A stretch of 64,000 nt of DNA. It comes from Phaeobacter sp. A36a-5a (GTDB lineage: Bacteria; Pseudomonadota; Alphaproteobacteria; Rhodobacterales; Rhodobacteraceae). The DNA lies in NCBI RefSeq assembly GCF_037911135.1, contig NZ_JBBLYU010000005.1, positions 124,001 to 188,000 of the forward strand, in the 5' to 3' direction. The position numbers and the translations under genes were made by a program. Shown one piece after another: positions 6,823 to 46,992 of this stretch (the first letter of the stretch is position 1; every line of letters starts with the position of its first letter). Under the pieces are notes generated by a model that searched no databases, was not told the DNA's origin, and worked only from the letters and a program-made list of their open reading frames with translations.

Positions 6823-6846
6823 GATAGCCCCCTTTTGTTGCCCCAG

Positions 6847-19942: not shown

Positions 19943-19945
19943 GGA

Positions 19946-21290: not shown

Positions 21291-21327
21291 TATGGTAAGC
21301 GTTCCAGACATCGCATAAGGGAGCAGG

Positions 21328-22107: not shown

Positions 22108-22115
22108 GAGCTGTG

Positions 22116-23608: not shown

Positions 23609-23609
23609 C

Positions 23610-25104: not shown

Positions 25105-25136
25105 CGCCATTTCCTTCAAAGCCTTTTCCGATCCGG

Positions 25137-26036: not shown

Positions 26037-26039
26037 CAG

Positions 26040-26825: not shown

Positions 26826-26836
26826 ATCCTGCCCTT

Positions 26837-29349: not shown

Positions 29350-29361
29350 GGACTTGTCCAG

Positions 29362-29670: not shown

Positions 29671-32633
29671 GTTCGCACCCCCCACTGAAAAACCGTCTGT
29701 CCGGCGGACTGATCGACCACGACACAGGCTTGTCGTTCCAATTCGACGGTAAGAACTACCAAGGCCATCAGGGAGATACGCTGGCGTCAGCACTGCTTGC
29801 CAATGGCGTGCGCCTTATGGGCCGCTCCTTCAAGTACCACCGCCCGCGGGGCGTGCTGACCGCGGGCAGCGAGGAGCCGAACGCCCTCGTTGAACTGCGG
29901 TCCGGTGGTCGTCAGGAACCGAATACGCGCGCCACGGTTATCGAACTCTACGCAGGATTGGAGGCCCAATCGCAGAACCGCTGGCCATCGCTCGAACATG
30001 ACGTGATGGCGATCAATGACCGGTTCTCGAACTTCCTGACCGCAGGGTTCTACTACAAGACCTTCATGTGGCCCAAAGCATTCTGGGAAAAGCTCTATGA
30101 ACCGATCATCCGCAAGGCAGCGGGCCTTGGCAGCCTGACCGGTGAGGCGGATCCCGACGCCTACGACAAGGGATATCTGCACTGTGATCTGTTGATCATA
30201 GGCGCCGGACCAGCCGGCCTGGCCGCAGCATTGACCGCAGGGCGCGCTGGCGCTCAGGTCATACTCGCGGATGAAGATAGTCACCTAGGCGGTCGTCTGC
30301 TAAGTGAAACTCAGGCTTTGTCCGATATGTCAGGCCCGGACTGGGTGGCCCAGACACAGGCAGAGCTTGCGACGCTCCCGAATGTGCGGGTGATGCCCCG
30401 CACCACAGTCTTTGGCGCCTATGATCACGGTATCTATGGTGCGGTTGAGCGCAATGCCGACCATCTGCCAAAACCCGCAGCTGGCAAACCGCGTCAGACC
30501 CTTTGGCGGATCTATTCCAAACGCGCGCTGATCGCCACGGGAGCCATTGAGCGACCGATCGCCTTTGAAAATAATGATCGGCCCGGCATTATGCTGGCGG
30601 GCGCCGTGCGTGCCTATGCCAATCGCTGGGCGGCGACCCCCGGCCATTCGGTCGTGGTGTTCGCCAACAATGACGATGCACATCAAACCGCTCGTGACCT
30701 CATGGCAAAGGGTGTCGAGGTCCCCGCGATCATTGACGTGCGACCGGATGCGCCAGCCCTGCCGGGAACCGAGGTTCTGGCAGGTGCCGAGATTACCGAC
30801 ACCAAGGGGCGGCTTGGCCTGACGTCTGTCACCCTGCGCCTGGCAAATGGGCAAACCCGAACAATCGCCTGCGACGCGCTGGCCATGTCCGGGGGTTGGA
30901 ATCCCAATCTGGGCCTGACGTGCCACCAGCGTGGTCGCCCCGTCTGGAACGAGGCCATCCAGTCTTTTGTTCCGGCCGCAGGGCTGCCAAACGGTCAGCT
31001 GGTCGCCGGGGCTGCTATGGGAGATATGACCACCGCACAGGCCCTTGCGGGGGGTGTCCAGAAAACGATCGAGGCGCTTGCCGATCTCGGCATCTCGGCC
31101 GGTGCAGCCGATCTGCCCCATGCTGAAGACGCACCCGTCTCGCTGACCCCGTTCTGGCAGGTCAAAGGCGCAAAGCGCGCTTGGCTGGATTTCCAGAATG
31201 ATGTGACGGTAAAGGACGTGAAGCTGGCGCATCAGGAAAACTTCACCTCGGTGGAACATCTGAAACGCTACACCACACTCGGCATGGCCACCGACCAGGG
31301 CAAAACCTCGAACCTTGGCGCGTTGGCAGTGATGGCCGAGCTCACCGGCAAGTCAATCCCGGAAACCGGCACGACCATCTTTCGTCCGCCCTATACGCCG
31401 GTGGCGATGGGCGCTCTGGCGGGGCGAGCGGTGGGTAAGGATTTCCACCCAACCCGCCTGACACCCAGTCACAAATGGGCCGAGGAACAAGGCGCGGTGT
31501 TCGTTGAGGTCGGCAACTGGCTGCGCGCGCAGTGGTTCCCGCGTGACGGTGAAACCCATTGGCGCCAATCCGTCGACCGCGAAGTGCTGCAAACGCGTAA
31601 TTCGGTGGGCATTTGCGACGTAACCACTTTGGGGAAGATCGACGTTCAGGGCACGGATGCCGCGACCTTCCTCAACATGATTTATGCAAACGGGTTTGCC
31701 AAATTACCGGTTGGCAAGGTGCGCTATGGGCTCATGCTGCGTGAGGATGGTATCGCCTATGATGACGGCACTGCGGCCCGTCTTGCAGAGGATCATTTTG
31801 TCGTCACTACAACCACGGCCAATGCGGTTCTGGTCTATCGCAATATGGAATTCGTGCGTCAGTGCCTGTGTCCGGATCTGGACGTTCAACTGATTTCGAC
31901 AACCGAGGCCTGGGCACAATATTCCGTCGCCGGGCCAAATGCGCGGAGATTGCTACAGAAGATTGTCGACCCAGAATTTGACATCTCAAACGAAGCGTTT
32001 CCCTTCATGGGCTGCGGCGAAATCACTGTCTGCGGCGGATGCCGCGCCCGACTGTTCCGGATCTCTTTCTCCGGTGAGCTGGCCTATGAAATCGCGGTGC
32101 CGACACGCTATGGCGACGCGCTGCTGCGGGAAATGATGGCCGCCGGTGAGGAATTCGACGTGACCCCCTATGGCACAGAAGCTCTGGGTGTCATGCGGAT
32201 CGAAAAAGGACACGCCGCCGGCAATGAGCTGAACGGGACAACATCCGCACTGAACCTCGGACTCGGGCGCATGGTCTCAACCAGCAAGGACTGCATTGGC
32301 AATGTCCTCAGCCGACGCGAGGGGATGAATACCGAAGCGGCGCTGCACCTGGTAGGGCTTCGCCCCGTCAACAGCAGCGACAGCCTGCCCGCCGGGGGGC
32401 ATCTGATGGCAGCCGACGGCCCCGTGGAGGCGGCACATGATCAGGGATATGTCACCTCCGCGGCCTATTCACCCATCCTGAAAAGCGCGATTGGCCTGGC
32501 TTTTGTCAAAGGTGGGTCGGACCGCACAGGAGAACGGCTGCGCCTTGTGAACCCGTTGGAAAACCAAACAGTCCTGGTTGAGATTGTCAGCCCACATTTT
32601 GTTGACCCGGAAGGGGAGAAGCTCCGTGCATAA
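29667..32633 (+). CDS. soxA: Sarcosine oxidase alpha subunit SoxA
   Basis: A 988-residue subunit of the usual length. The N-terminal domain (FQFDGKNYQGHQGDTLASALLANGV, YHRPRGVLTAG) resembles a ferredoxin-like SoxA start. An NAD-binding Rossmann unit follows at LLIIGAGPAGLAAALTAGRAGAQVILADE near residue 175, and the C-terminal 380 residues are a GcvT-like folate-binding domain (GICDVTTLGKIDVQG, EIAVPTRYGDALLREMMAAG, RIEKGHAAGNEL). This domain accepts the methyl group on tetrahydrofolate. It starts in a 4-nt overlap with soxD, and its last 8 nt overlap soxG. Confidence 0.93.
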   Translation: MSSHPPLKNRLSGGLIDHDTGLSFQFDGKNYQGHQGDTLASALLANGVRLMGRSFKYHRPRGVLTAGSEEPNALVELRSGGRQEPNTRATVIELYAGLEAQSQNRWPSLEHDVMAINDRFSNFLTAGFYYKTFMWPKAFWEKLYEPIIRKAAGLGSLTGEADPDAYDKGYLHCDLLIIGAGPAGLAAALTAGRAGAQVILADEDSHLGGRLLSETQALSDMSGPDWVAQTQAELATLPNVRVMPRTTVFGAYDHGIYGAVERNADHLPKPAAGKPRQTLWRIYSKRALIATGAIERPIAFENNDRPGIMLAGAVRAYANRWAATPGHSVVVFANNDDAHQTARDLMAKGVEVPAIIDVRPDAPALPGTEVLAGAEITDTKGRLGLTSVTLRLANGQTRTIACDALAMSGGWNPNLGLTCHQRGRPVWNEAIQSFVPAAGLPNGQLVAGAAMGDMTTAQALAGGVQKTIEALADLGISAGAADLPHAEDAPVSLTPFWQVKGAKRAWLDFQNDVTVKDVKLAHQENFTSVEHLKRYTTLGMATDQGKTSNLGALAVMAELTGKSIPETGTTIFRPPYTPVAMGALAGRAVGKDFHPTRLTPSHKWAEEQGAVFVEVGNWLRAQWFPRDGETHWRQSVDREVLQTRNSVGICDVTTLGKIDVQGTDAATFLNMIYANGFAKLPVGKVRYGLMLREDGIAYDDGTAARLAEDHFVVTTTTANAVLVYRNMEFVRQCLCPDLDVQLISTTEAWAQYSVAGPNARRLLQKIVDPEFDISNEAFPFMGCGEITVCGGCRARLFRISFSGELAYEIAVPTRYGDALLREMMAAGEEFDVTPYGTEALGVMRIEKGHAAGNELNGTTSALNLGLGRMVSTSKDCIGNVLSRREGMNTEAALHLVGLRPVNSSDSLPAGGHLMAADGPVEAAHDQGYVTSAAYSPILKSAIGLAFVKGGSDRTGERLRLVNPLENQTVLVEIVSPHFVDPEGEKLRA

Positions 32634-33189
32634 GCTCAGTCCAATCAGCCCACTTGGCAGCGATACGGCCCGGATTGACCGGATCGGCGACCTGACCATC
32701 TCAGAGGTGACAGACCAGGCCCTGGCCTCGATTACAGCGCGTAAAGATCAGGAAACGGCACTGCGGGCGGCTCTTGGTTCGGCGCATGGCATGACGCTTC
32801 CAGATGTCGGCACATCTTCAGACTCGGGGGGAATCTCCGTTTTTTGGACCGGACCCGCTCAATGGATGATCTCGGCCCCGCATGACCGCCATGAATTGCT
32901 GGCGCGTGATCTGAAACAAGTGGTGGGTGCGGCTGCCTCGGTGGTCGAACAGACCGATGGCTGGTGCCGTTTCGATGTCACCGGTCCGACACTCTGCGAT
33001 CTGTTCGAACGGCTCAGCAATGCACCTGTGCGCAATATGACAACAGGGCGCGTTATTCGGGGCACGTTGGAACATCTCGGCGTATTCCTCTGGCGCCGGG
33101 CAGAGGATCACATGGCAGTATTGGGACCGCGCTCCTCCGCGGCCTCCCTTCACCACGCGCTTATAAGCGCAGCTCATTCCATCGCGTAA
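32626..33189 (+). CDS. soxG: Sarcosine oxidase gamma subunit SoxG
   Basis: A 187-residue subunit. I chose GTG 32626 (overlapping the soxA stop by 8 nt) because AGGGGAGA lies just upstream and the sequence from HKLSPISPLG on is the conserved part; an in-frame start at 32578 would extend 16 residues into soxA. Family features are WFxTGPAQWMI-like FWTGPAQWMI, VVEQTDGWCRFDVTGP and GVFLWRRAEDHMAVLGPRSSAASLHHAL. SoxG packs against the alpha subunit near the folate domain. A hairpin follows the stop. Confidence 0.87.
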   Translation: MHKLSPISPLGSDTARIDRIGDLTISEVTDQALASITARKDQETALRAALGSAHGMTLPDVGTSSDSGGISVFWTGPAQWMISAPHDRHELLARDLKQVVGAAASVVEQTDGWCRFDVTGPTLCDLFERLSNAPVRNMTTGRVIRGTLEHLGVFLWRRAEDHMAVLGPRSSAASLHHALISAAHSIA

Positions 33190-33195: not shown

Positions 33196-33226
33196 CCTGT
33201 CTGCGGTGTCCTATCCCGCAGGCAGG
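33196..33226 (+). terminator. Hairpin after soxG
   Basis: CCTGTCTGCGG (33196-33206) pairs with CCGCAGGCAGG (33216-33226), an 11-bp stem with one G-T wobble and a 9-nt loop. It lies between the stop codons of convergent soxG and the GlxA-type regulator and extends into the last codons of the latter. No T-tract follows. Confidence 0.5.
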
Positions 33227-34218
33227 GCGTCGCCGCTTTTTACGCGGAGGGAGTTTTTCGCCCGGCGATCATTGATCGGCGTGACGCCAAAGCTCTCGCG
33301 GTATATCCGCAGGAACGCGCCCGGCGTGCTGTAACCTACCATATAGGCGATTTCGGTGACCGAGGTGCTGGAATACAGCACCAGTTGCCGCGCCTGATTC
33401 ATCCGCATCATCCGATAGTATTTCAGCGGGCTCTGACCCGTCGCCTCCTTGAAACTGCGTTCGAGGGATCGCGCCGATACACCAATAGCATTCGCTACAT
33501 CGCTGATTTGAATAGGGTCTTCGATATGCTCGGCAAAATGTTCAATGGCCTGCGTCACCTTCTTGGGCAACAGATCCTTGCTCTTGGCTGTTGAAAACGC
33601 GGGTGTCTTTTGCGACGTCGTGGCGCTGCGCACATATGGATGCTGAAACCAGCAGGCAACTTCGGCCATGATATCGCCGCCCAAATGGTCTTCTATCAGT
33701 GTCAACATATAGTCGAAAACCGCCGTCGCCCCGGAAATCGTGGTGAAAGCCCCCTCATCGCAGATCACTGTGCTCAGCCTCTCGATCTCAGGAAATTCCG
33801 CTTCAAAAGCAGCCTCATAGCACCAGTGAACCGAGAGCGGGTCGCTCCCGACCAAACCGGTGCGTGCCAGCGGAAACACCCCCCCGCTGAAGGCGCCAAG
33901 TCGGGTCTTGTTCCGGGTAAGCCGCTGGAGCGCGGCATTGGCACGCGCCGATTGATCAAAGCGCGCATTAGGACCCGCCGCAAAGAACAGATAATCGTGA
34001 TCCGTAAGATCGGCCAGCACACGATCCGGGCTGAACGTCACCCCTGCCGAGGACGCGACCGGCTCCGTTGTTTCGGCAACAACAGTCCAGCGAAACGCCT
34101 CCTTCCCCGCGATTTCATTGGCGGCCCTCAGCGGCTCGATGCAAGACGTCAGGCAAGCCATAGGGAAACCAGGAAAGATCATAATGCCAAGCGTAAGCGG
34201 CGTCTTGGTTAGGGTCAC
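33211..34218 (-). CDS. GlxA-type AraC-family regulator (DJ-1/PfpI plus HTH)
   Basis: A 335-residue regulator with an N-terminal DJ-1/PfpI-like domain (LTLGIMIFPGFPMACLTSCIEPLRAANEI; FFAAGPNARF) and a C-terminal AraC HTH pair (QISDVANAIGVSARSLERSFKEATG and VTEIAYMVGYSTPGAFLRIYRESFG, both in family form). This architecture is shared by GbdR, CdhR, SouR and DhcR, which activate betaine, carnitine and sarcosine catabolism. GTG at 34218 overlaps the LysR stop. Its place between soxBDAG and the betaine-type operon makes it the likely activator of one or both. Confidence 0.86.
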   Translation of the reverse strand: MTLTKTPLTLGIMIFPGFPMACLTSCIEPLRAANEIAGKEAFRWTVVAETTEPVASSAGVTFSPDRVLADLTDHDYLFFAAGPNARFDQSARANAALQRLTRNKTRLGAFSGGVFPLARTGLVGSDPLSVHWCYEAAFEAEFPEIERLSTVICDEGAFTTISGATAVFDYMLTLIEDHLGGDIMAEVACWFQHPYVRSATTSQKTPAFSTAKSKDLLPKKVTQAIEHFAEHIEDPIQISDVANAIGVSARSLERSFKEATGQSPLKYYRMMRMNQARQLVLYSSTSVTEIAYMVGYSTPGAFLRIYRESFGVTPINDRRAKNSLRVKSGDALPAG

Positions 34219-35111
34219 GACAGGCCTCCTTTGGTCAATTCGGCAGCACAGCTCAGGATGTGTTTTTCCAGCAAACGGGCCGCAGGAGACAGCGCCGTAT
34301 CGGTTTTCCGAAGCAGGTGGATCTGGCGAGTCGCAAGCGAATCAGCCAATGGTCGGAACGCCAGCCCCGTCGCATTCGCGGCTCGCGCGGCCATCTCCGG
34401 CAAAATAGTTACCCCGATTTCAGCCTGCACCATAGCCATGATGGAGGTCAGGTTCTGTGCCTTCAAAAGCGCCCTGTCGTGCAGCTCTCTGGATTGCTCC
34501 GCCTTGATGCTGGCCGACAGGCTATTGGCGATCAGCCTTTCGTTCCGCAGCATCTCCCATTCGATTTTCCCCTGCTCCTGCGCCAGCGGGTGACTGGGTG
34601 CGCAGATCACTCCGAACGCATCCGACAGCAGATGCTGGCTGTGCAATCCAGAGCTGTTCTGGCCCAGTGTTGCAATACCGATGTCGATGCGTTCACGGGA
34701 CAGCTCATGCAGAACCGAGATCGAGTCCATATCTCGCAACTCAATATCTACATTCTTGAAATCGTTGATGTACCTGGAAAAGACCAAGGGCATGACGGTG
34801 CCGGCGACCGATGGAACCGTGGCTATGCGGACATGTCCGTGGGTGGCCTTGGCATAGCCTTCTATGGCTTTGACCATCGTATCGTATTGCTGCAACTCGC
34901 GCTCTGCTTGTTCCAGCACAAAGGCCCCAAGGGCGGTCAGCCTGTTCTTACGGTCGGTTTCAAACAGCGGTTCGCCAAGATGGGTTTCCAGCTGCTTGAG
35001 CATCATCGATACGGCAGAGGGCGTGCGCCCAAGAATACCGGCAGCATCACTCAGGTTTCCACTTCGAGCGACTGCAGCAAAACCGCGGAGCAATTCAATT
35101 TTCAAAGCCAT
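34215..35111 (-). CDS. LysR-family transcriptional regulator
   Basis: A 298-residue LysR protein. The ATG at 35111 begins ALKIELLRGFAAVARSGNLSDAAGILG, the standard N-terminal helix-turn-helix; the longer open frame back to 35435 lies over the divergent dehydrogenase gene and is rejected. A substrate-binding domain follows from about residue 90 (VRIATVPSVAGTVMPLVFSRY). It is divergent from the aldehyde dehydrogenase operon with a 110-nt gap that holds a TTCAG-N5-CTGAA repeat. It forms an operon with the GlxA-type regulator (GTGA overlap), so two regulators of different families are made together. Confidence 0.86.
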   Translation of the reverse strand: MALKIELLRGFAAVARSGNLSDAAGILGRTPSAVSMMLKQLETHLGEPLFETDRKNRLTALGAFVLEQAERELQQYDTMVKAIEGYAKATHGHVRIATVPSVAGTVMPLVFSRYINDFKNVDIELRDMDSISVLHELSRERIDIGIATLGQNSSGLHSQHLLSDAFGVICAPSHPLAQEQGKIEWEMLRNERLIANSLSASIKAEQSRELHDRALLKAQNLTSIMAMVQAEIGVTILPEMAARAANATGLAFRPLADSLATRQIHLLRKTDTALSPAARLLEKHILSCAAELTKGGLS

Positions 35112-35221: not shown

Positions 35222-36673
35222 ATGACTGATATCCAAAAGAACCTGATTGCCGGTGAATGGCTGGCTGGTGAGAGCGAAGTCGAGAACCGCAACCCATCGG
35301 ATCTGAGCGACCTCGTTGGTATCTTCGCGCAGGCCAGCGCCGATCAACTGGATGCGACATTGGACCAGGCGCAGGTCGCCCAGCGTGAATGGGCGGCCTA
35401 TGGGCTTGAGCGTAAGCAGGCCGTGCTGAACGCAATCGGCAACGAGATGATGGCCCGCGCCGAAGAACTCGGCACGCTCCTGAGCCGTGAAGAAGGCAAG
35501 CCGCTGGCCGAGGGTAAAGGCGAAGTTTACCGCGCCGGCCAGTTCTTCACCTATTACGCCGCCGAATGCCTCCGCCAGATCGGGGAAAACGCCGACTCCG
35601 TGCGTCCCGACATCGAGGTGGATGTGCGCCGGGAAGCGGTCGGTACGGTGGCGATCATCAGCCCTTGGAACTTCCCGACCGCTACCGCCTCCTGGAAAAT
35701 CGCGCCGGCGCTTTGCTATGGCAACGCCGTGGTGTGGAAACCGGCCAACATCACCCCGGCATCAGCCGTCGCGCTGGCCGAGATCATCAACCGGCAGGAT
35801 ATCCCCAAGGGCCTGTTCTCGCTGGTCATGGGCTCCGGCCGTTCCATCGGCCAGCGTCTGGTCGAAAGCCCCAAAGTGAACGCGATCTCCTTCACCGGCT
35901 CGGTGCCGGTGGGCAAAGGGATTGCTGCCGCCGCCATCCAGAACCTGACCAAGGTGCAGATGGAGATGGGCTCCAAGAACGCGCTGGCGGTGATGGACGA
36001 CGCAGATCTGGATCTGGCCGTCACGCTGGCCCTCGGTGGCGCCTTTGGCGGCACCGGACAGAAATGCACAGCCTCCTCCCGGCTCGTGGTCCACGCGGCC
36101 ATTCATGATGCCTTTGTCGACAAACTTGTCGCCGGGGCACAGGCCATGAAAGTGGGCCACGCGCTGGAAGCGGGCGTGCAGATGGGGCCGGTGGTCAGCG
36201 AGCAGCAGCTGAACGAGAACCTGGCCTATGTGGACATTGGCACTTCTGAAGGTGCTGAACTGGCCTGCGGCGGCCTGCGTCTGCAGATGCCGCACGAGGG
36301 CTTCTACATGTCCCCTGGCGTTTTCCTCAACACCACCAACGACATGCGCATCAACCGCGAGGAAATGTTCGCGCCGCTGACCAGCGTGATCAAGGTCGGC
36401 AGCTATGACGAGGCGCTGTCGGTGGTGAATGACACCAACTTCGGCCTGACCTCGGGCATTGTCACCCAGTCGCTGGCGCGCGCCACCCATTTCCGCCGCA
36501 ACGCGCGCACCGGTGTGGTCACTGTCAACCTGCCAACCGCAGGCACCGACTACCATGTGCCATTCGGTGGCCGCGGCGACAGTTCCTATGGCCCGCGCGA
36601 GCAGGGTAAGGCAGCGGCGGAGTTCTATACCACCGTCAAAACCGCCTACATCAGCGCCGGCAAGCCGGTCTGA
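35222..36673 (+). CDS. NAD(P)-dependent aldehyde dehydrogenase
   Basis: A 483-residue aldehyde dehydrogenase; ATG 35222 begins TDIQKNLIAGEW, the family start, while an upstream in-frame start at 35162 is less likely. Cofactor and catalytic motifs are IISPWNFPTATASWKIAPAL, FTGSVPVGKGI, EMGSKNALAV (general-base Glu) and GGTGQKCTASSRL with Cys282 as nucleophile. It most resembles the alpha-ketoglutarate semialdehyde / succinate semialdehyde dehydrogenase group. It is the first gene of a six-gene operon, so it probably oxidises a semialdehyde formed from the methylated substrate, or formaldehyde-derived or betaine aldehyde-like compounds. Confidence 0.87.
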   Translation: MTDIQKNLIAGEWLAGESEVENRNPSDLSDLVGIFAQASADQLDATLDQAQVAQREWAAYGLERKQAVLNAIGNEMMARAEELGTLLSREEGKPLAEGKGEVYRAGQFFTYYAAECLRQIGENADSVRPDIEVDVRREAVGTVAIISPWNFPTATASWKIAPALCYGNAVVWKPANITPASAVALAEIINRQDIPKGLFSLVMGSGRSIGQRLVESPKVNAISFTGSVPVGKGIAAAAIQNLTKVQMEMGSKNALAVMDDADLDLAVTLALGGAFGGTGQKCTASSRLVVHAAIHDAFVDKLVAGAQAMKVGHALEAGVQMGPVVSEQQLNENLAYVDIGTSEGAELACGGLRLQMPHEGFYMSPGVFLNTTNDMRINREEMFAPLTSVIKVGSYDEALSVVNDTNFGLTSGIVTQSLARATHFRRNARTGVVTVNLPTAGTDYHVPFGGRGDSSYGPREQGKAAAEFYTTVKTAYISAGKPV

Positions 36674-36721
36674 GACTGAATTCTTGGCAGTGCCGCATCG
36701 CCGGCCTGCCAGTTTGCGGAC

Positions 36722-36756
36722 GCGCCCGCCCTCCTTGTTTCCCCCGAGGCGGGCGC
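36722..36756 (+). terminator. Hairpin between aldehyde dehydrogenase and dipeptidase-like gene
   Basis: GCGCCCGCC (36722-36730) and GGCGGGCGC (36748-36756) form a perfect 9-bp stem with a 17-nt loop in the 137-nt gap. No T-tract follows, so it may be an intercistronic stabiliser or partial attenuator rather than a full terminator. Confidence 0.45.
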
Positions 36757-36810
36757 ATCCTGCCTGGCATTACAGGCCGGGTAGTGGACTTTGAAAACCG
36801 AGGTGCTTGA

Positions 36811-37800
36811 ATGACCGGATATCGTATCGACTGCCTGCAATATGCCAATTGGTCGGAAAAAATCTTCCGCCAGCTGCGCGAGGGCAACGTGGACGCAATC
36901 CATGTCACCATTGCCTATCATGAGACCTTCCGCGAGACGGTCCTGAACTTCGAGAAATGGAACCGCTGGTTCGAGCAGTACCCGGATCTGATCATGAAGG
37001 GGCAGTGGGCCTCTGACATCGACAAGGCCCGCGAAACCGGCCGCACCGCTGTGTTCTTCGGTTTCCAGAACCCCTCGCCGATAGAGGACGACATCGGCCT
37101 GGTGGAGATCCTGCACACGCTGGGCGCCCGATTCATGCAGCTCACCTACAACAACCAGTCGCTGCTGGCGACGGGGTGTTATGAGGCCGAGGACATGGGG
37201 ATCACCCGCATGGGCAAGCAGGTGATCAAGGAGATGAACCGGGTCGGCCTGGTCGTGGACATGAGCCATTCCGCCGACCGTTCCACCATCGAAGCAGCGG
37301 AAATTTCCAGCCGCCCGATCGCCATTACTCATGCCAACCCGCATGAATGGTCGCCGGCCCTGCGCAACAAGAAGGATGACGTCATCCGCGCAGTGACCGG
37401 CCATGGCGGGATGCTGGGCTTCTCGGTCTATCCGCATCACCTGAAGGACAAGTCCAACTGCACGCTGCAAAGCTTCTGCGAGATGATTGCCCGAACCGCC
37501 GAGAAATTCGGCGTTGAACATCTCGGGATCGGCACTGACCTTTGCCAGGACCAGCCGGACAGCGTCGTCGAATGGATGCGTGTGGGTCGCTGGACCAAGG
37601 AGATCGACTACGGCGAAGGCTCCAAATCCGCGCCGGGTTTCCCGCCAATGCCCAGCTGGTTCGAAGACAACCGCGACTTCGGAAATATCGAAGACGGGCT
37701 GCGCGAGGTCGGCATGAACAACGACGAGGTATCAGCTGTCATGGGAGGCAACTGGTATCGCTTCTTTGAAGAGAATTTCGGTCCAAAATCGGGGGATTAA
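36811..37800 (+). CDS. Degenerate membrane-dipeptidase (peptidase M19) family protein
   Basis: A 329-residue TIM-barrel protein of the renal dipeptidase family. Active M19 enzymes bind two zinc ions through an N-terminal HxD, a bridging Glu in an EGG-type motif, and two later His residues. Here the start reads RIDCLQYANW with no HxD, and the Glu region reads VFFGFQNPSPIEDD. His153 (VDMSHSAD), His174 (ITHANP) and Asp243 (GIGTDLCQD) remain. It is therefore unlikely to be a normal dipeptidase. A similar relative occurs beside dimethylglycine catabolic genes in Pseudomonas, as I recall, which fits this locus. The reaction is unknown. Confidence 0.8.
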   Translation: MTGYRIDCLQYANWSEKIFRQLREGNVDAIHVTIAYHETFRETVLNFEKWNRWFEQYPDLIMKGQWASDIDKARETGRTAVFFGFQNPSPIEDDIGLVEILHTLGARFMQLTYNNQSLLATGCYEAEDMGITRMGKQVIKEMNRVGLVVDMSHSADRSTIEAAEISSRPIAITHANPHEWSPALRNKKDDVIRAVTGHGGMLGFSVYPHHLKDKSNCTLQSFCEMIARTAEKFGVEHLGIGTDLCQDQPDSVVEWMRVGRWTKEIDYGEGSKSAPGFPPMPSWFEDNRDFGNIEDGLREVGMNNDEVSAVMGGNWYRFFEENFGPKSGD

Positions 37801-37862
37801 AGACCGGGATAGACAGAAATATCGGCCCGACCAGTGCGCGGGCCAACCAATGGGAGGGAAAG

Positions 37863-39407
37863 ATGTCAGAGACATCTATGGAGACAACACCGCAGGAGAG
37901 CCGGATCAACAAGCCGCTGTTTCTGCTTTCAGGCGGTTTTATCGCGCTATTCTGTGCCGCAGCACTGGTCAATCTTGACGGGCTGTCGGCACTGGTCGAC
38001 TGGGGGTTCAACATCTCGGCGACCTATTTCGGCCTGTACTGGCAAATTCTACTGCTTGCGACCTTTCTGATCGGTTTGCTGCTCTGCGTCCTGCCCGGTG
38101 GGCGCGCTATTCTCGGCGGGCTGGCCGCGCCTGAATTCACCACGTTCCAGTGGGGATCCATGGTCATGTGTACTCTGCTTGCTGGTGGTGGCGTGTTCTG
38201 GGCGGCCGGGGAGCCGATTGCGCATTTCCTCTACTCGCCTCCCCTCTACGGGGCCGAAGGAGGTAGCGAAGCCGCCGTTACCCCCGCTATCGCACAAAGC
38301 TTCATGCATTGGGGGTTTCTAGCATGGGCGATCCTCGGTTCGCTCTCCACGGTCATGCTGATGCATTATCACTATGAAAAGGGCCTGCCGCTGGCCCCCC
38401 GGACGCTGCTCTATCCGGTGTTCAAGGACAAGGCTATCAACGGCCCCATCGGGGTGATCGCCGACGCATCATCGATCATCGCCGTGGTAGCGGGTACCGT
38501 CGGTCCGATCGGCTTTCTTGGGCTTCAGGTGAGCTATGGTCTCTCCGATCTCTTCGGCATCCCGGACGTTTTTGCCACTCAGTTCGTGGTGATCGGCGCA
38601 CTGGTGGCACTCTACACGATCTCGGCGATGACCGGCCTGTCGCGCGGCATCCAGATGCTGTCCAAGATCAATGTGATCCTGGCCGCCGTGTTGCTGGTCT
38701 ATGTGCTCATTGCCGGGCCTACCGGTTTCATCTTCGGATCGTTCTTCTCAGGTTTTACGACCTATTTGGGCAACTTCTTCCAGATGGCGCTCTATCGCGG
38801 TGATGCAGGCATATTCGGCGCTCCCGGCTGGCTGGGATGGTGGACCGTGTTCTTCTGGGGCTGGTTCATGGGCTACGGGCCACTGATGGCTATGTTCATT
38901 GCCCGCGTGTCACGCGGACGGTCGATCCGGTCCATCATCATCATGCTGTCGATCATCGCACCCATCGTGACCAACTTCTGGTTCACCATCATCGGGGGCA
39001 CGGGCATTGCGATGGAACTGGCTGAGCCCGGCACCATCTCCGCAGCTTTCGAAGGCTTCAACCTGCCTGCGGCACTACTGGCAATCACGAACAATCTGCC
39101 GATGGGTTTCTTGATCTCAATCCTGTTCTTGATCCTGACCACGATCTTTGTGGCCACGACCGGAGATTCGATGAGCTACGTGATTTCCGCTACAATGACC
39201 AACGGCGACACCCCAAGCATCGCCGTACGTGTTTTCTGGGGCATCGCCATGGGTGTGATGGCGGTCATTTTGATCTCCGTCGGTTCCGGTGGCGTATCAA
39301 AACTACAGAGCTTCATCGTGGTCACCGCGGTTCCGGTGTCGCTTATTCTTCTGCCATCGCTCTGGGATGCTCTGCGCATCACATTGGCAAAAGGCAAAGA
39401 GAACTGA
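37863..39407 (+). CDS. BCCT family transporter with atypical TM8 signature
   Basis: A 514-residue secondary transporter of the betaine/choline/carnitine family with about 12 hydrophobic segments. FMHWGFLAWAILGS near residue 145 is the TM4 region, and WTVFFWGWFMGYGPLMAMF (about residues 325-345) is TM8, followed by IARVSRGRSIRS, the most conserved BCCT stretch. Typical betaine carriers read WAWWxSWSPFVG here, so two of the cage tryptophans are replaced (F and Y). The substrate is probably a related but different zwitterion. ATG 37863 follows GGGAGGGAAAG. It provides the import step for the operon. Confidence 0.88.
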   Translation: MSETSMETTPQESRINKPLFLLSGGFIALFCAAALVNLDGLSALVDWGFNISATYFGLYWQILLLATFLIGLLLCVLPGGRAILGGLAAPEFTTFQWGSMVMCTLLAGGGVFWAAGEPIAHFLYSPPLYGAEGGSEAAVTPAIAQSFMHWGFLAWAILGSLSTVMLMHYHYEKGLPLAPRTLLYPVFKDKAINGPIGVIADASSIIAVVAGTVGPIGFLGLQVSYGLSDLFGIPDVFATQFVVIGALVALYTISAMTGLSRGIQMLSKINVILAAVLLVYVLIAGPTGFIFGSFFSGFTTYLGNFFQMALYRGDAGIFGAPGWLGWWTVFFWGWFMGYGPLMAMFIARVSRGRSIRSIIIMLSIIAPIVTNFWFTIIGGTGIAMELAEPGTISAAFEGFNLPAALLAITNNLPMGFLISILFLILTTIFVATTGDSMSYVISATMTNGDTPSIAVRVFWGIAMGVMAVILISVGSGGVSKLQSFIVVTAVPVSLILLPSLWDALRITLAKGKEN

Positions 39408-39413
39408 ATAGCT

Positions 39414-39436
39414 GCCGGGCGCTGCTGGCGCCCGGC
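39414..39436 (+). terminator. Strong hairpin after the BCCT gene
   Basis: GCCGGGCGC and GCGCCCGGC form a perfect 9-bp stem with a TGCTG loop, beginning 7 nt after the BCCT stop. There is no T-tract. It may separate expression of transporter and downstream enzymes. Confidence 0.55.
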
Positions 39437-39512
39437 CCACCCATCCAAACTGCCCGACCTGTTCAGATCATACGGGATACGACTAACGACCTGATTACAA
39501 AGGCCAATCCGA

Positions 39513-41204
39513 ATGACCGACATTCTCTGCCGTGAACCGAACACCGTCATGCGTCTGGCACGCCTTGGCTCTATGCACCAGTCGCGCCTGTCATTCATGC
39601 GGGTGCTGACCCGTCGTCTGGCGCGCGAAGGCTGGCGATTTGAACAGACCGCATTTGACATAGACGACAGCGGTCAGGGCCATGCAGTCTACACCGCATA
39701 TGGGCCGGAGCGCGCATATTCCCTGGTCGCCTTTGCCCACGACCTGCCGCCTGAAAAACGCTCCGACCGAGTGATTGCAGAGGCCTGGGACGCCACTTTC
39801 ACACTATTTGACGGTATTCCTTCTGACGCGGATATCGCCCGGCTGTCACAGAATATCCCCGTGCAAGAAGCCGGACGTGTGTCCGGGTCGGAGCTTTCTG
39901 TATCCCGTGCCAACCGGTCGGTGCGCCTCTGGGAACATGTGGTCGGCGCATTGGCCTCTGGCCAGCAGCCCTCCGCAGAGCAGATCGACGCCGTCGGCTA
40001 TCTGATGCGGACAACGGCGGTCTACGGGTCCGGCAAACTGGGTGCGGCTGACCGCGAGATGATCGCGGAACGCCCCGAATTCCGTGCGCCGTTCCAGGTT
40101 GAGATGCTATCGGTCTACCTGACCCGCTGGTTTGTCACCGATCTGGTCCAGCATATGGCCGATTGTCGCGCCAAGGCTGAGGGCACCACCGCCGCAAAAC
40201 TGGCTCCGGATCTGGCCCGGTCAATGGGGATCGGCAATTCCACCGGCCTTGGAATGGCGCCGTTTCTGCTCAACCACCCGGTGCTGTTCAACAACTGGGT
40301 CGCGGCGCGCGAAAAGGCGATTCAGGCGGTGCGCAATATCGAGGAAGCGCATCCCGACGATATCGCTGTGTTCCGCTCTCTGGTGGCACGCAGCAAGCTG
40401 ACAATTGCAGATTGGCAGTCACAGCATCCGATTCAGATCCAGAAACTGAGCGCGCTGCGTGCCGACGCTGATCAGGTGACCAGCTACCTGGAAATCCAGA
40501 CGCTGGCCGGTCCGAAGCCCTGGGATGCCCTCTACCGCTGGGCCGAAGAGACGCTCTCGCTCGAGGGTCAGGAATGGATCGCGTCGCTGATGCTGGAGCC
40601 CTACGGCGGGCTTGTCGATGGCTTCGCCGAAGATATGTCAGCAGATAACACCGCAACCTTTCGCATTGCGGGTGCTATGACCATTGGCGATCTTCGCAAG
40701 ATCCTGCGGGACGTATACGCTTGGGCCATCGACACAAACTGGCAGGCCCCAGAGAACAAGGCACGCGCCTGGTATGTTTCGGAGGAAAAGCTCGAACCCC
40801 GTCTGGGTGAGCGCTTTGAGGAGCCCATCGAAGAATATGAGCAGCCGCTGGCACCGGGTCGAGATGCCGCGATGTTGTACCAGGCTCTGGCCCACTGGCC
40901 AGACGAGGCGCAGGTTGCAGATTTCCTGTTGCGCCATTCCGAACACCGCCATGTTCTGCGCCGTGTTCAGATCGTCGGCCGCGCGCCCTACGCGGAAATC
41001 CGTGACAACACGATTTCCGATCAGGTCCTGCCGATCGATATGCTGCGCTGCAAGCTGGCATTCTTTGGCGCGACGAAATTTGATCCCCGGTCAGATCGTT
41101 GGGTGCGGATTTGCATGTATGGCAATGCTCCGCTGCCCACCGAACTCACCGTTGAGAACGCGGAATTCTGGGTATTCCCCGAACTGGAAGAGGGGCTGGC
41201 ATGA
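39513..41204 (+). CDS. Unknown protein, 563 residues, in the BCCT operon
   Basis: I do not recognise this protein. It is soluble-looking, with no signal peptide or membrane segment, and rich in charged residues. Notable stretches are SMHQSRLSFMRVLTRRLAREGW near the start, LMRTTAVYGSGKLGAADREMI (about 168-188), SMGIGNSTGLGMAPFLLNHP (about 233-252) with a glycine-rich turn, and SEHRHVLRRVQIVGRAPYAEIRDN near 490. It overlaps the DUF3726 gene by 4 nt (ATGA), which suggests a stable partnership. It is flanked by transporter and dehydrogenases, so an enzyme or enzyme subunit for the imported compound is likely. Normal codon use argues against recent transfer. Confidence 0.72.
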   Translation: MTDILCREPNTVMRLARLGSMHQSRLSFMRVLTRRLAREGWRFEQTAFDIDDSGQGHAVYTAYGPERAYSLVAFAHDLPPEKRSDRVIAEAWDATFTLFDGIPSDADIARLSQNIPVQEAGRVSGSELSVSRANRSVRLWEHVVGALASGQQPSAEQIDAVGYLMRTTAVYGSGKLGAADREMIAERPEFRAPFQVEMLSVYLTRWFVTDLVQHMADCRAKAEGTTAAKLAPDLARSMGIGNSTGLGMAPFLLNHPVLFNNWVAAREKAIQAVRNIEEAHPDDIAVFRSLVARSKLTIADWQSQHPIQIQKLSALRADADQVTSYLEIQTLAGPKPWDALYRWAEETLSLEGQEWIASLMLEPYGGLVDGFAEDMSADNTATFRIAGAMTIGDLRKILRDVYAWAIDTNWQAPENKARAWYVSEEKLEPRLGERFEEPIEEYEQPLAPGRDAAMLYQALAHWPDEAQVADFLLRHSEHRHVLRRVQIVGRAPYAEIRDNTISDQVLPIDMLRCKLAFFGATKFDPRSDRWVRICMYGNAPLPTELTVENAEFWVFPELEEGLA

Positions 41205-41851
41205 GCCATTCGTTGAATGAAATCGAGGCCATGAGCAAGCGCGCCGCCCGTGGCGCGGGCCTGTCCTGGGGATTGGCAGAAGAGGCCGCCAAGGGTACGC
41301 GCTGGCTTTCGTCTTTTGGGTTTCCCGGCACCGAGATGCTGGCAGATCTGCTGACGATGAATGATCGCATTCCCTCGATTGACGTATCGCCCGTTTCGCT
41401 GCGAGCCGAGGTCTGGCACGCCCCTGCCCGCCGGATGAGTCCCTTGATCGCCGGTGCAGCACTCAGCGATTGTGCCGTGCGCCTGCTGGAGCGCGGCAAG
41501 ATCACGATGGAGAACGTCAATTTTCCCTTGCTGGCGGTGCCCTTCATGGGCGGCGCGGCCTTGCGACTGGGCCGACCGGTTGCCGCCGAATGGCAGGGCG
41601 CGCGCCTGGCCACCGATGGCAAGCGGCTCTGCGTGCAGGGCTCCAGCGAGACGCTGCACAGCCTGCTGGCGGAACGGATGGTATTCTCCGCCCCTGCGGA
41701 GATGACCGGCCAGCAAGAACCGGTGATGCGCGCAAGCGTCTCCAACGCAAGCTGGGACCAGCTGGGCAAGTTTGCCCATCGCACCTTTGCCCCGGCGACC
41801 GAGGAAAGCCGCCTGCGCGGCGCCGGGGCCGGCCTCAGCGACAACGACTGA
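41201..41851 (+). CDS. DUF3726 family protein
   Basis: A 216-residue protein that matches DUF3726 as I recall it: NEIEAMSKRAARGAGLSWGLAEEAAKGTRWL at the start, then a Leu/Ala-rich central part and FAHRTFAPATEESRLRGAGAG at the end. No transmembrane or signal sequence is visible. The reaction is unknown. Coupling to the 563-residue gene by ATGA overlap, and the Ldh-type gene 63 nt downstream, point to a shared complex or pathway step. The NEIEAMSxRAARGAG motif with its GxSWG turn is the part most likely to be functional. Confidence 0.75.
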   Translation: MSHSLNEIEAMSKRAARGAGLSWGLAEEAAKGTRWLSSFGFPGTEMLADLLTMNDRIPSIDVSPVSLRAEVWHAPARRMSPLIAGAALSDCAVRLLERGKITMENVNFPLLAVPFMGGAALRLGRPVAAEWQGARLATDGKRLCVQGSSETLHSLLAERMVFSAPAEMTGQQEPVMRASVSNASWDQLGKFAHRTFAPATEESRLRGAGAGLSDND

Positions 41852-41914
41852 TCCACCCATCGACTGCCGGTCAGCCCGGCATTGACCCGAAGACTGAAAA
41901 ACAGAAAGCCCGAT

Positions 41915-42922
41915 ATGACCGCAACCGAAACCCTGACCCTTGCCGAAATCGAAGACCTGGCCTTCCGCGTGTTGGTCAAGGCCGGCACCTCCGAAGCCAA
42001 CGCCCGCCCCCTTGCTGTTGCAACCGCCATGACCGAAGCCGATGGCGTCGCCTCGCACGGGCTGGCCTATATCCCGATCTATGCCCAGCATGTCGAATGT
42101 GGAAAGGTGGATGGTCAGGCAAAGCCGGTTGTGGATCAGCCCCGCCCGGCGGTTGTCACCGTGGACGCAGCGACCGGTTTTGCCCATAGCGCCATTGATC
42201 TCGGCTTTGAAAAACTGATCCCGCTGGCCCGCGAGATGGGGGTTGCGGTTCTGGCGGTGAACAACTCCTACAACTGCGGTGTCCTCGGAGTTCACACGCA
42301 ACGGCTGGCGCAGGCAGGATTGCTTGGCATCGGTTTCACCAATGCGCCCGCCTCGATCGCGCCCTCCGGCGGTGCGAAGCCGGTTGTCGGCACCAACCCC
42401 TTCTCGATCGCGGCCCCGGACGCAGACGGGAATGCCGCGCTGCTGATCGACCAGTCCGCCAGCACAATTGCCAAGAGCGAAGTTATGAAACACGCCCGGG
42501 AGGGCAAAGCGGTCCCCGAAGGCTGGGTGCTGGATGCTGACGGGCAACCAACCACCAATCCCGAGGCCGGGCTCAAGGGGTCAATGGTTCCTTCCGGCGG
42601 ATACAAGGGCGTCGGCATCGCCTTGACTGTTGAACTGATGGCGGCTGCCATGACCGGCGCGACCCTCGGCTCCGTCGCCAGCCCCTTCTCTGGCACCGCG
42701 GGTGGGCCACCAAAAACCGGCCAGTTCTTCATTGCGATCGATCCGGCAGCAACCTCGGGCGGCGCATTCCACGACCGGCTGACCGACCTGATCGCATCAA
42801 TCCATGATCAGGATGGCGCACGGCTGCCGGGCGATGGACGTCGTGGCTGCCGCACACGTGCCGCGTCTGAAGGCGTCGCCGTGAACGCCGCACTGCTGGA
42901 GAAGGTCCGCGACCTTCTCTGA
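41915..42922 (+). CDS. Ldh-family (malate/lactate dehydrogenase 2 type) oxidoreductase
   Basis: A 335-residue NAD(P)-dependent enzyme of the LDH2/MDH2 fold; ATG 41915 begins TATETLTLAEIEDLA, and an upstream in-frame start at 41882 is less likely. GVASHGLAYIP (Ser47-His48) and PVVGTNPFSIAAP are intact. Where many members have a catalytic NxxHxG, this one has Asn117-Ser-Tyr-Asn-Cys-Gly. The family covers 2-hydroxy acid dehydrogenases (sulfolactate, ureidoglycolate) and cyclic imine reductases such as DpkA (pyrroline- and piperideine-2-carboxylate). In this operon either an imino acid reduction or hydroxy acid oxidation is plausible. A perfect hairpin terminator follows. Confidence 0.85.
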   Translation: MTATETLTLAEIEDLAFRVLVKAGTSEANARPLAVATAMTEADGVASHGLAYIPIYAQHVECGKVDGQAKPVVDQPRPAVVTVDAATGFAHSAIDLGFEKLIPLAREMGVAVLAVNNSYNCGVLGVHTQRLAQAGLLGIGFTNAPASIAPSGGAKPVVGTNPFSIAAPDADGNAALLIDQSASTIAKSEVMKHAREGKAVPEGWVLDADGQPTTNPEAGLKGSMVPSGGYKGVGIALTVELMAAAMTGATLGSVASPFSGTAGGPPKTGQFFIAIDPAATSGGAFHDRLTDLIASIHDQDGARLPGDGRRGCRTRAASEGVAVNAALLEKVRDLL

Positions 42923-42950: not shown

Positions 42951-42978
42951 ATAAAGGAGGTCATATGGCCTCCTTTAT
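42951..42978. terminator. Bidirectional terminator between convergent operons
   Basis: ATAAAGGAGG (42951-42960) and CCTCCTTTAT (42969-42978) are perfect 10-bp arms around an 8-nt loop. A T-rich arm flanks the stem on both strands. It lies between the Ldh-type gene (plus) and the DMGDH-like gene (minus) and should serve both. Confidence 0.8.
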
Positions 42979-42993: not shown

Positions 42994-45414
42994 CTAGCCC
43001 CGCAGAATGGCACCATCTGCGTCGAACGGCGGTCGCTCCAAAATGACCGCCCGGTGTGGACGCCCCAGGACCATGACCTCCACCGCATCACCGGGCATTG
43101 CCTCTCGAACAAAGCCAAGCGCCAGCGACATGCCCACGCTGTATCCATAGGCGCCCGAGGTTACGCGGCCGATCCCCTTACCATCCTTGAAAATAGGCTC
43201 TCCGCCGGTCGCATCAGCATTGGAAGCTGCCGTTCCGGCCTCATCCAGATGCAGCAGAACCATCCGTTCACGTGCCGGGTTCTCGAGGACCTTTTCTGCG
43301 GCAGCTTTGTTCAGGAAGTCTTTTTGCAACTTGCAAAGCCGGTCCAGCCCGACCTCCTGCGGCCAGTATTCCGGGCTATATTCCCGGCTCCAAGAGCCGT
43401 AACCTTTTTCGATCCGCAAGGACATCAACGCCCGACTCCCGACAGGACCTGCGCCGAACTCCTCACCAGCAGCCAGGAGCGCCGAGTAGAGACGCGGCTG
43501 ATCTTCGCGCCTGCAATGCAGCTCCCATCCCAGATCGCCGGTGAAAGAAACCCGTAGTGCAAGCACCTGAATCCCGGCAAGATCAATCCAAGCCGAACGC
43601 ATGAACGGAAACTCATCGGTCGAGAGGGAGGTATTTGTCAGGCGTTGCAGCATCTCACGTGATTTCGGCCCCGCGACATTGAAACCGCAGATCTCGTCTG
43701 TCAGCGACACGAACATAGTGCCTTCTGGCAGCGGCACCTCCTTGAAGAATCGCTTGTGATAGCGCTCGGCCATGCCGGATCCGATGATCCAGAACTCATC
43801 CTCAGAAACACGGGTCACCGTGAAATCCCCGGCAATCCCACCGCGTTTCGAAATCAGCGGCGTGAGGCAGGACCGTCCCACCGCATTTGGCATCGCATTG
43901 GCAAAGACCGCGTTCAGCCATTCTTCGGCCCCGGGCCCCGCACACCGGTATTTGGCAAAGTTGGATATGTCGATAATGCCCGCACGGGACCGCAACATTC
44001 TGCACTCATCGCCAACGGGTCCCCACCAGTTCTGACGGGTGAACCCATTGGTATCCTTGGCGCCGGGCGCTTCTGCAAACCAGAGGGGATGTTCCCAACC
44101 GGCGTTGAGGCCAAAGACCGCGCCCATTTCCGCCTGTTGCTCATATATCGGCCGCGTCCGTGCCGGGCGACCAGCGCTGCGTTCTTCATTGGGAAAATGG
44201 ATGGCAAAGCGATGGGCATATTGATCCCGCACCCGCGCCTTGGTGAAATCTTTGGTCGCCCAACTGCCAAACCGCGCCATGTCCCAGGCGAACATATCAT
44301 ATTGGGTCTCACCCTCGATGATCCATTGCGCCGCCATCAGCCCCATACCGCCGGACTGCGAGAAACCCGGAATAATGCCATTGCAGCAGAAATATCCATC
44401 AATTTCGGGCACCGGCCCCATCAGGACATTGGCGTCCGGCGACCAGATCATCGGACCATTGATGACACGCTTGATGCCAGCGTCACCAACCGCAGGCAGG
44501 CGTTCGATGGCGTTCATCATGTTCTCTTCGATCCGCTCCAGATCATCTGGAAAGAGATCATGTGCAAAGTCGAGCGGCGTGCCCTCCTCGGCCCAGAACT
44601 TCATATCCTTTTCATAGGCGCCAACCAGCAGCCCCTGCCCTTCTTGCCGCAGATAATACTCACCGTCCCGGTCACTGACGGATGGCAGGCGGGTCCCATG
44701 CGCGGCCACGGCAGCCATGGTCTCGGTAACGAAATACTGATGCTCAGTTGGCTGCAACGGCAGCTCGATCCCCGCCAGCGCCGCGACCTCGCGGCCCCAG
44801 AGCCCTGCCGCATTCACCACCCAAGGCGTGCGGATATCTCCTTTGGTCGTCTTAACAATCCAGCTGCCATCGTCTTGCTGCTCGGTCGCCGTCACAGGGG
44901 TGAAACGATGGATTTCGGCGCCCCGCTGGCGCGCCCCGAGGGCATAGGCATTCGTCACGCCAGAGGGATCCACATTGCCACCATCGGGTTCATACATAAC
45001 ACAGCGGATGCCATCGTAATTGACCAGCGGGTTCAGGCGCCTGGCCTCCTCGATGCTGATCTCGTAAAAATTCATCCCATAGAGCTTGGCCTTTGCGGCC
45101 TGCAACCTCAGCTGGTGTTCACGTTCCACTGTCTGCGCCAAATAGAGGGACCCAGGCTGAAATACGCCACAGCTCTGTCCGGTCTCAGCTTCCAGTTCCT
45201 TGTAGAGAGACATCGTATAGTGCTGGATACGGCTGATATTGGTGCTGTCATGCAACCCGTGGATATTTGCCGCCGCGTGCCAAGTGGACCCGGACGTCAA
45301 CTCGTTCCGCTCCAGCAGCACCACATCTGACCATCCCAGTTTGGTCAGGTGGTAGAGGATTGAACACCCAATAACCCCTCCACCGATGACAACTGCCTGT
45401 GCTTCTCTACGCAT
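42994..45414 (-). CDS. Dimethylglycine dehydrogenase-like FAD/folate enzyme
   Basis: An 806-residue flavoenzyme with an N-terminal DAO-type FAD domain (AVVIGGGVIGCSILYHL) and a C-terminal GcvT-like folate domain (about residues 430-800, with GIIDISNFAKYRCAGPGAEEWLN and RIEKGYGSWSREYSPEYWP). SGSTWHAAANIHG places His46 where dimethylglycine and sarcosine dehydrogenases attach FAD covalently. Such enzymes remove one N-methyl group and load it on tetrahydrofolate. ATG 45414 has AAGGGAGC upstream. It follows the Rieske oxygenase and 79-residue gene in one direction, so dimethylglycine, or another dimethyl amino acid made by the oxygenase, is the likely substrate. Confidence 0.85.
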   Translation of the reverse strand: MRREAQAVVIGGGVIGCSILYHLTKLGWSDVVLLERNELTSGSTWHAAANIHGLHDSTNISRIQHYTMSLYKELEAETGQSCGVFQPGSLYLAQTVEREHQLRLQAAKAKLYGMNFYEISIEEARRLNPLVNYDGIRCVMYEPDGGNVDPSGVTNAYALGARQRGAEIHRFTPVTATEQQDDGSWIVKTTKGDIRTPWVVNAAGLWGREVAALAGIELPLQPTEHQYFVTETMAAVAAHGTRLPSVSDRDGEYYLRQEGQGLLVGAYEKDMKFWAEEGTPLDFAHDLFPDDLERIEENMMNAIERLPAVGDAGIKRVINGPMIWSPDANVLMGPVPEIDGYFCCNGIIPGFSQSGGMGLMAAQWIIEGETQYDMFAWDMARFGSWATKDFTKARVRDQYAHRFAIHFPNEERSAGRPARTRPIYEQQAEMGAVFGLNAGWEHPLWFAEAPGAKDTNGFTRQNWWGPVGDECRMLRSRAGIIDISNFAKYRCAGPGAEEWLNAVFANAMPNAVGRSCLTPLISKRGGIAGDFTVTRVSEDEFWIIGSGMAERYHKRFFKEVPLPEGTMFVSLTDEICGFNVAGPKSREMLQRLTNTSLSTDEFPFMRSAWIDLAGIQVLALRVSFTGDLGWELHCRREDQPRLYSALLAAGEEFGAGPVGSRALMSLRIEKGYGSWSREYSPEYWPQEVGLDRLCKLQKDFLNKAAAEKVLENPARERMVLLHLDEAGTAASNADATGGEPIFKDGKGIGRVTSGAYGYSVGMSLALGFVREAMPGDAVEVMVLGRPHRAVILERPPFDADGAILRG

Positions 45415-45557
45415 CTTTGCTCCCTTCAAGAGCCTATCTTAACGGAGCAGCGATCCAGACTGCCTCCGCTATCGGTTGAACCGCTTGGTGCCTGTTGCCG
45501 GTCGCACAGGTCACCATGCCAGCCGGTTTTTCAGCACAAATACCCGACTGTGACATG

Positions 45558-45797
45558 TCAGAAGCTGAGGCGCTGCACGCGCCCCCGTGCCGCAAGCCGC
45601 GCATTCAGCGGATCGGCTTCGGGCGCGCCGAGTTCCAGAGCAAAGACAAAGGCATGCGTGAGGAAAAAACAGGCCCTGTCTATATCGTCGGCCGCCTCTG
45701 CATAATCGGCGGCGAGTGAATAGAGCCGCACGAGAGCCGCGCCATCATCTGCGGCATGCGCCTGCAACAGGGCGCGATCAAGCTCATCGCGTTCCAT
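45558..45797 (-). CDS. Small conserved-looking hypothetical protein of the Rieske operon (79 aa)
   Basis: A 79-residue acidic, alanine-rich, helical protein (MERDELDRALLQAHAADDG, then LYSLAADYAEAADDIDRACFFLTHAF). The pattern of alternating Ala/Leu helices resembles a single TPR-like hairpin pair. It begins 15 nt after the Rieske oxygenase stop, and I recall similar small proteins beside such oxygenases in roseobacters. No function is known; a chaperone or regulatory partner is conceivable. The ribosome site is weak, which lowers confidence. The 143-nt gap to the DMGDH-like gene shows no other gene. Confidence 0.6.
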   Translation of the reverse strand: MERDELDRALLQAHAADDGAALVRLYSLAADYAEAADDIDRACFFLTHAFVFALELGAPEADPLNARLAARGRVQRLSF

Positions 45798-45812
45798 GGC
45801 TCAGGAACTCGC

Positions 45813-46967: not shown

Positions 46968-46992
46968 CGAACTCTCCATGGCGTGAGCTTTT

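Follow-up and report, generated by a model that had tools for sequence, protein, structure and literature searches.

A probable homarine-type operon in Phaeobacter sp. A36a-5a carries two protein families with open biochemistry

Homarine (N-methylpicolinate) is described as a phytoplankton osmolyte that marine bacteria quickly remove. An operon for its breakdown, homABCDER, was reportedly described by Ferrer-Gonzalez et al. (Nat Microbiol, 2026, doi 10.1038/s41564-026-02313-7) as five catabolic genes plus a regulator; it is said to occur in Rhodobacterales, SAR116 and SAR11, and to yield N-methylglutamate and glutamate. Here we analyze a six-gene operon in a 64,000-nucleotide stretch of Phaeobacter sp. 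A36a-5a, hereafter the window (assembly GCF_037911135.1, contig NZ_JBBLYU010000005.1, positions 124,001 to 188,000). Its genes encode an aldehyde dehydrogenase (ALDH), a degenerate M19 dipeptidase-like amidohydrolase, a BCCT importer, a 563-residue protein (563-aa), a DUF3726 protein and an Ldh_2 oxidoreductase (Ldh). The initial annotation of this DNA had known no described pathway that combines these families, a statement that is probably outdated, since a homarine pathway published in 2026 is cited in PMC13390433. We consider it likely that the six genes serve the uptake and degradation of homarine; the operon is probably of the kind described in 2026, and two of its families have an open biochemistry.

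homABCDER reportedly comprises five catabolic genes and a regulator, to which the ALDH, M19, 563-aa, DUF3726 and Ldh genes of the window, together with a LysR gene, would correspond. The window differs in having a BCCT gene after the M19 gene, and in a cluster resembling mgdABCD (N-methylglutamate dehydrogenase, Mgd) that lies beyond the LysR and AraC-type genes. We infer homarine as the substrate, a complex of 563-aa with DUF3726, and the order and chemistry of all steps as follows. The BCCT protein would import homarine, whose N-methylpyridinium ring would be opened at C5-C6, probably by 563-aa and DUF3726 acting as one enzyme. ALDH would oxidize the aldehyde released by ring opening, the M19-like protein would cleave a C-N bond, perhaps removing an N-formyl group, and Ldh would reduce the leftover N-methyl imine to N-methylglutamate. 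MgdABCD would then convert N-methylglutamate to glutamate and methylene-tetrahydrofolate, and the LysR protein would regulate the operon.

A scan of named genomes for relatives of 563-aa confirmed 578 candidates, of which the 80 with the highest scores were kept, so that the counts below concern near relatives. Gene content was scored in 56 of these 80 loci, each with 6 kb on both flanks; the other 24 were dropped because they had less than 6 kb on a side or no usable 563-aa open reading frame (ORF). Two alignments, both thinned by hand, held 62 of 80 (A2) and 60 of 75 (A3) available rows. M19 and DUF3726 genes were each present in 54 of the 56 loci, ALDH in 44, LysR in 42, and Ldh (at least 50% identity) in 30. 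ALDH, M19, 563-aa and DUF3726 occurred together in 43 loci, and their co-location is therefore more than chance; 40 of these core loci also carried LysR. Conservation of these four genes, often with Ldh, and of LysR fits the reported five genes plus regulator and argues for homarine as the substrate.

The enzyme set stays constant while the importer gets swapped: a distant BCCT was found at 15 core loci, and some other loci carry glycine-betaine-type ABC genes. An Mgd-like alpha subunit was present at 7 core loci. Separability of the genes in most genomes, which the initial annotation had named as counting against its own proposal, holds for the BCCT (of the window kind in 9 of the 43) and partly for Ldh (28 of the 43), but not for M19, 563-aa and DUF3726.

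In a protein search, 164 of 292 genomes sampled from the order had a member of the 563-aa family; sorting the 164 by E-value gave 118 of the window type, 45 of a second group and one weak match. In a sample from the class, 53 of 385 genomes had the family. The family also matches 168 plasmid records, most commonly from Sinorhizobium (64) and Phaeobacter (58), and the window protein is 95-96% identical to copies on Phaeobacter plasmids. Two loci labelled SAR116 (L104, L110) carry ALDH, M19, 563-aa and DUF3726. Two loci of one further family (L236 and L238, from G366, a single 1.41 Mb contig, and G593; 33-36% GC at the loci) carry glycine-betaine ABC genes, ALDH, M19, 563-aa, DUF3726 and Ldh; in another family (L235, L237; 1.20 and 1.32 Mb, 28-30% GC at the loci) only M19, 563-aa and DUF3726 of the set are present. 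The core set in L104 and L110 and, with ABC transporter and Ldh, in L236 and L238 supports the assignment to homarine. So does the rapid homarine uptake recorded for R. pomeroyi in PMC12817926; other Ruegeria carry the operon.

The plus-strand ORFs near the operon that were first annotated as soxBDAG do exist, but from the phylogeny of the alpha subunit the cluster is best read as mgdABCD. According to PMC13390433, mgdABCD of R. pomeroyi adjoins the AraC-type gene tmaR, and Mgd participates in homarine catabolism, a point for which the 2026 homarine paper is cited. The window cluster likewise has an AraC-type gene alongside, by analogy a possible TmaR counterpart. The host genome encodes three full-length SoxA-like proteins. 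In a tree of 44 rows (L120, L121, L122, L143 and L146 omitted as second copies, and L105 below the length limit), the window alpha subunit falls in a 22-row clade (support 100/99) made up of the window, 10 operon-adjacent, 5 gmaS-linked (gmaS no more than about 13 kb away) and 6 unlinked rows. This clade is separate from that of the host's own copy L130 (44% identity) and from a middle clade containing its own copy L129 (57%). The gmaS gene of L146 is upstream of the SoxA-like gene and shares its orientation. Outside the clade, 15 places were comparable with gmaS coordinates, and none of them was near gmaS. The tree does not include 11 of 41 places, which had no locus. Because the window subunit groups with gmaS-linked proteins, we read its cluster as N-methylglutamate dehydrogenase, and this grouping, with the role of Mgd in homarine catabolism, again points to homarine.

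The host genome has no GmaS above the family cut-off, so the GmaS methylamine pathway is not expected there, and a place for the cluster in that pathway was rejected. An ordinary sarcosine oxidase was set aside on the tree, although the alpha and beta subunits pass the sarcosine-oxidase subfamily models (see below); the gamma subunit fails its model (62 bits, cut-off 144). A protein of the Mgd clade occurred in 51 of 118 genomes with the window type of 563-aa versus 28 of 174 without it (Fisher p = 4.8e-7, uncorrected for phylogeny; 37 of the 174 under a looser limit, both limits being set by hand on a 400-residue fragment), and this co-occurrence too favors homarine. A SoxB/SoxA-like pair of the middle clade (L129, G000:C1:703000-719000, 3497-9972) follows, by eye, a glutamate dehydrogenase-like gene; the pair may represent one more dehydrogenase of N-methyl amino acids.

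Several points weigh against the homarine assignment. The alpha and beta subunits both pass sarcosine-oxidase subfamily models (1338 bits versus a cut-off of 1164, and 678 versus 529), and against the solved sarcosine oxidase the window alpha subunit reaches 659 bits versus 725 for L130, taken as canonical. The Mgd reference rows of the tree are gmaS-linked proteins rather than biochemically tested Mgd; 7 of 16 gmaS-bearing genomes have no window-clade protein; and the operon-adjacent SoxA-like ORF of L105 (46%), too short for the tree, looks unlike the clade. Among the 118 genomes with the window type of 563-aa, 67 have no Mgd-clade protein under the strict limit and 54 under the looser one. 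No Ldh with at least 50% identity lies close to 15 of the 43 core loci. Neither a cofactor site nor a metal site was seen in 563-aa, and its role is a guess. Lastly, identity with hom, which we hold to be probable, rests on the reported features of homABCDER and one citing paper.

The closest solved relative of the operon Ldh is delta1-piperideine-2-carboxylate reductase (1wtj, 2cwf, 2cwh; Ldh_2), aligned over nearly its full length (E = 5.6e-58 against 1wtj; next best 8.7e-39), although this record set also bears the label ureidoglycolate dehydrogenase. This kinship lends weight to the earlier proposal that ALDH and Ldh act on the carbon skeleton of the substrate and, together with the recognizable importers beside the operon, which are betaine-type, to homarine itself. 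The motif WGWF(M/L)GYGP is present in all 29 BCCT ORFs compared (72-100% identity, a set that includes the window copy and a few genomes twice), whereas the corresponding stretch in two solved BCCTs is WAWWIAW(A/S)P; this difference agrees with the initial view that the carrier imports a betaine-like zwitterion, probably not glycine betaine.

The M19 protein had been called degenerate, and alignment to GliJ bears this out: two conserved site positions are replaced (Glu by Q86, His by Y113), positions that we take to be metal ligands, while H153, H174 and D243 are retained. All five residues are invariant in 20 aligned rows. Its closest solved relative is the M19 amidohydrolase 2i5g, aligned over residues 6-324, with which it shares a GFQN stretch where GliJ has Glu. 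The gene context of 2i5g is, we presume, glycine betaine catabolism. A literature search for PA5396 gave no occurrence in the papers listed.

For 563-aa, no Pfam family matched, an alignment searched against PDB profiles found no relative (best E = 0.53), and a structure model (pLDDT 89.4) gave nothing in Foldseek at E = 0.001 (best E = 0.31); its profile aligned to Ldh_2 with E = 0.49 (hhalign). The DUF3726 model (pLDDT 93.8) has Ldh_2 enzymes as its top 27 Foldseek matches, 9 of them at E of 0.001 or lower (best 2.7e-5), the match to that fold being partial (TM by query 0.36-0.59). At the profile level the link is weak: hhalign against the operon's Ldh family gave E = 1.8e-4 and a probability of 48% over 46 columns, and the best hit of the alignment against PDB profiles had E = 0.38. 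DUF3726 has 216 residues, compared with 312-364 in the 27 matched chains, and so must miss part of the fold, presumably the NAD-binding insert. A literature search for the term DUF3726 found no paper.

Reading 12 of the 45 second-group loci (L185-L196) revealed a DUF3726-like gene adjoining the 563-aa gene in all 12, and M19 in 9. Only L194 has the full ALDH-M19-563-DUF3726-Ldh operon with LysR; within 6 kb of the other 11, the operon's ALDH, Ldh and BCCT were not found. This content marks 563-aa and DUF3726 as the steadiest pair, with M19 as the usual third. Second-group loci, L185 and L190 among them, pair 563-aa (about 46% identity) with a short DUF3726-like gene, in most cases alongside M19, and the operon importer was not found there; L185 and L190 adjoin, by eye, a truA-like gene. 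New here are that DUF3726 is modelled with an Ldh_2 fold whose length would not accommodate the complete NAD-binding insert, that no solved fold matches 563-aa, and that 563-aa and DUF3726 travel together, usually with M19, in other contexts too.

More distant 563-aa genes (28-29% identity) lie downstream of an IclR gene in Sinorhizobium, Alloyangia and Ensifer (L032, L036, L039), each with a partner gene, a dipeptidase, ABC transporter genes and RidA. An 'aspartate aminotransferase family' gene is present in L032 and L039 and SSADH in L039; in L036, gabT and SSADH lie upstream on the opposite strand. The Sinorhizobium partner has a weak Ldh_2 match of its own (E = 0.025). In Bosea (L038), a 563-aa relative stands with a partner gene and ABC transporter genes, with no dipeptidase in the stretch shown. 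These distant genes, with other partners in Sinorhizobium and Ensifer (ABC genes, aminotransferase, RidA), lend something to the alternative that the substrate is a different N-methylated pyridine carboxylate, for example trigonelline, whose breakdown would involve chemistry of the same type. We nonetheless judge this very improbable, because we see no obvious route from trigonelline to N-methylglutamate and because the published link of Mgd, in PMC13390433, is to homarine. A broader proposal, which we advance tentatively and hold more doubtful than not, is that 563-aa and the reduced, Ldh_2-fold DUF3726, usually with a degenerate M19, constitute an enzyme of a new type, with a fold not seen before, and open the rings of N-methylated pyridinium carboxylates with neither a Rieske nor a flavin oxygenase, the rhizobial and standalone paralogues acting on other ring compounds.

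The initial annotation had placed the convergent Rieske and DMGDH-like genes and soxBDAG in a stepwise demethylation of the imported compound. A stretch of 7 kb beyond the 563-aa gene on its downstream side was available in 59 relatives (21 of the 80 were left out); among these, a Rieske match occurred in 2 (25-27% identity) and a DMGDH match in 2 (29-36%), and both genes at 91-92% only in P. inhibens (L031). With such rare neighbors, and with the 'SoxA' protein grouping with gmaS-linked proteins in the tree, we rejected the three as one chain. A Rieske homologue (43%) and a SoxA-like piece (41%) were also seen within 19 kb around M19-563-DUF3726 in L235 (G542, a 1.2 Mb genome).

These counts bear on two further alternatives. 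If the substrate were proline betaine or hydroxyproline betaine, the Rieske and DMGDH-like proteins would take one N-methyl group, the ring would be oxidized to N-methylglutamate semialdehyde, ALDH would produce N-methylglutamate and Mgd would finish. The two genes do adjoin the operon in a layout shared with P. inhibens, and this route also runs via N-methylglutamate and Mgd. We think it unlikely all the same, given the scarcity and low identity of the Rieske and DMGDH matches; moreover, the conserved pair of 563-aa and DUF3726 would be left without a task, and the solved protein nearest to Ldh takes its name from a six-membered ring. Alternatively, the operon could assist in demethylating glycine betaine or dimethylglycine, as an accessory module, with soxBDAG a true sarcosine oxidase. 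The AraC gene is GbdR-like (199 bits, under the cut-off of 480), BCCT and Rieske/DMGDH genes are present, and the sarcosine-oxidase scores of the alpha and beta subunits and the presumed context of 2i5g would agree. The chance of this appears slight: the Rieske protein falls far under the cut-off of the GbcA (glycine betaine monooxygenase) model (97.8 versus 670 bits), the tree sets the alpha subunit apart from the remaining SoxA copies of the genome, and the core set recurs without Rieske or DMGDH neighbors.

With homarine as the likely substrate, naming its genes would make homarine turnover readable from sequence. The operon carries a family with no Pfam entry or solved fold relative and a DUF3726 partner with no assigned chemistry, and, if the regrouping is true, a cluster labelled sarcosine oxidase would belong to N-methylglutamate metabolism.

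The layout first described was confirmed: six tightly spaced genes on one strand (gaps of 137, 62, 105, -4 and 63 bases, the 4-base overlap joining 563-aa and DUF3726), a divergent LysR gene and convergent Rieske and DMGDH-like genes, with the family calls upheld by Pfam (Table 1). An inverted repeat between the operon and the convergent genes is a possible terminator, although it was absent from the list produced by a terminator scan of the window; a promoter scan gave 2 sites versus 4.8 in shuffles. The host genome measures 4.05 Mb.

Table 1. Positions of the operon genes and neighboring features in the window
Feature	Positions	Strand	Remarks
ALDH (aldehyde dehydrogenase)	35222-36673	+	Pfam Aldedh
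Degenerate M19 dipeptidase-like amidohydrolase	36811-37800	+	Pfam Peptidase_M19
BCCT importer, WGWFMGYGP motif	37863-39407	+	Pfam BCCT
563-aa protein	39513-41204	+	no Pfam match
DUF3726 protein	41201-41851	+	Pfam DUF3726; predicted Ldh_2-like fold, reduced length
Ldh_2 oxidoreductase	41915-42922	+	Pfam Ldh_2
LysR-type regulator, divergent	34215-35111	-	Pfam HTH_1 and LysR_substrate; start 35111
AraC-type regulator with DJ-1/PfpI domain, adjoins mgd-like genes	33211-34218	-	Pfam HTH_18, HTH_AraC, DJ-1_PfpI
DMGDH-like FAD/GCV_T gene, convergent	42994-45414	-	
Rieske gene, convergent	45813-46979	-	
Inverted repeat, gap between operon and convergent genes	42951-42978	.	14-nt arms, 93% complementary
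soxBDAG-like cluster (best read as mgdABCD)	28075-33189	+	ORFs 28075-29349, 29362-29670, 29667-32633, 32578-33189

Plasmid pPGA1_262 of P. inhibens DSM 17395 (L031) has the arrangement of the window plus an extra ALDH gene. This gene, of about 1.45 kb, lies there between the Rieske and DMGDH-like genes and is missing from the window, where, at 45415-45812, a few codons resembling its start persist, followed by a small downstream ORF. The Ldh gene of this plasmid reads as two ORFs (L031 5968-7040) that match the window protein at 90% and 97% identity, and the gene table of the plasmid does not list it. Homologues of 563-aa with one in-frame stop were seen in G097, G150, G119, G029 and G075. Elsewhere in the window, a separate cluster (17969-27784) carries a DctM-type transporter, an NMT1-like protein, an IclR regulator, a fumarase-like pair, an HpcH/HpaI aldolase and DUF6282.

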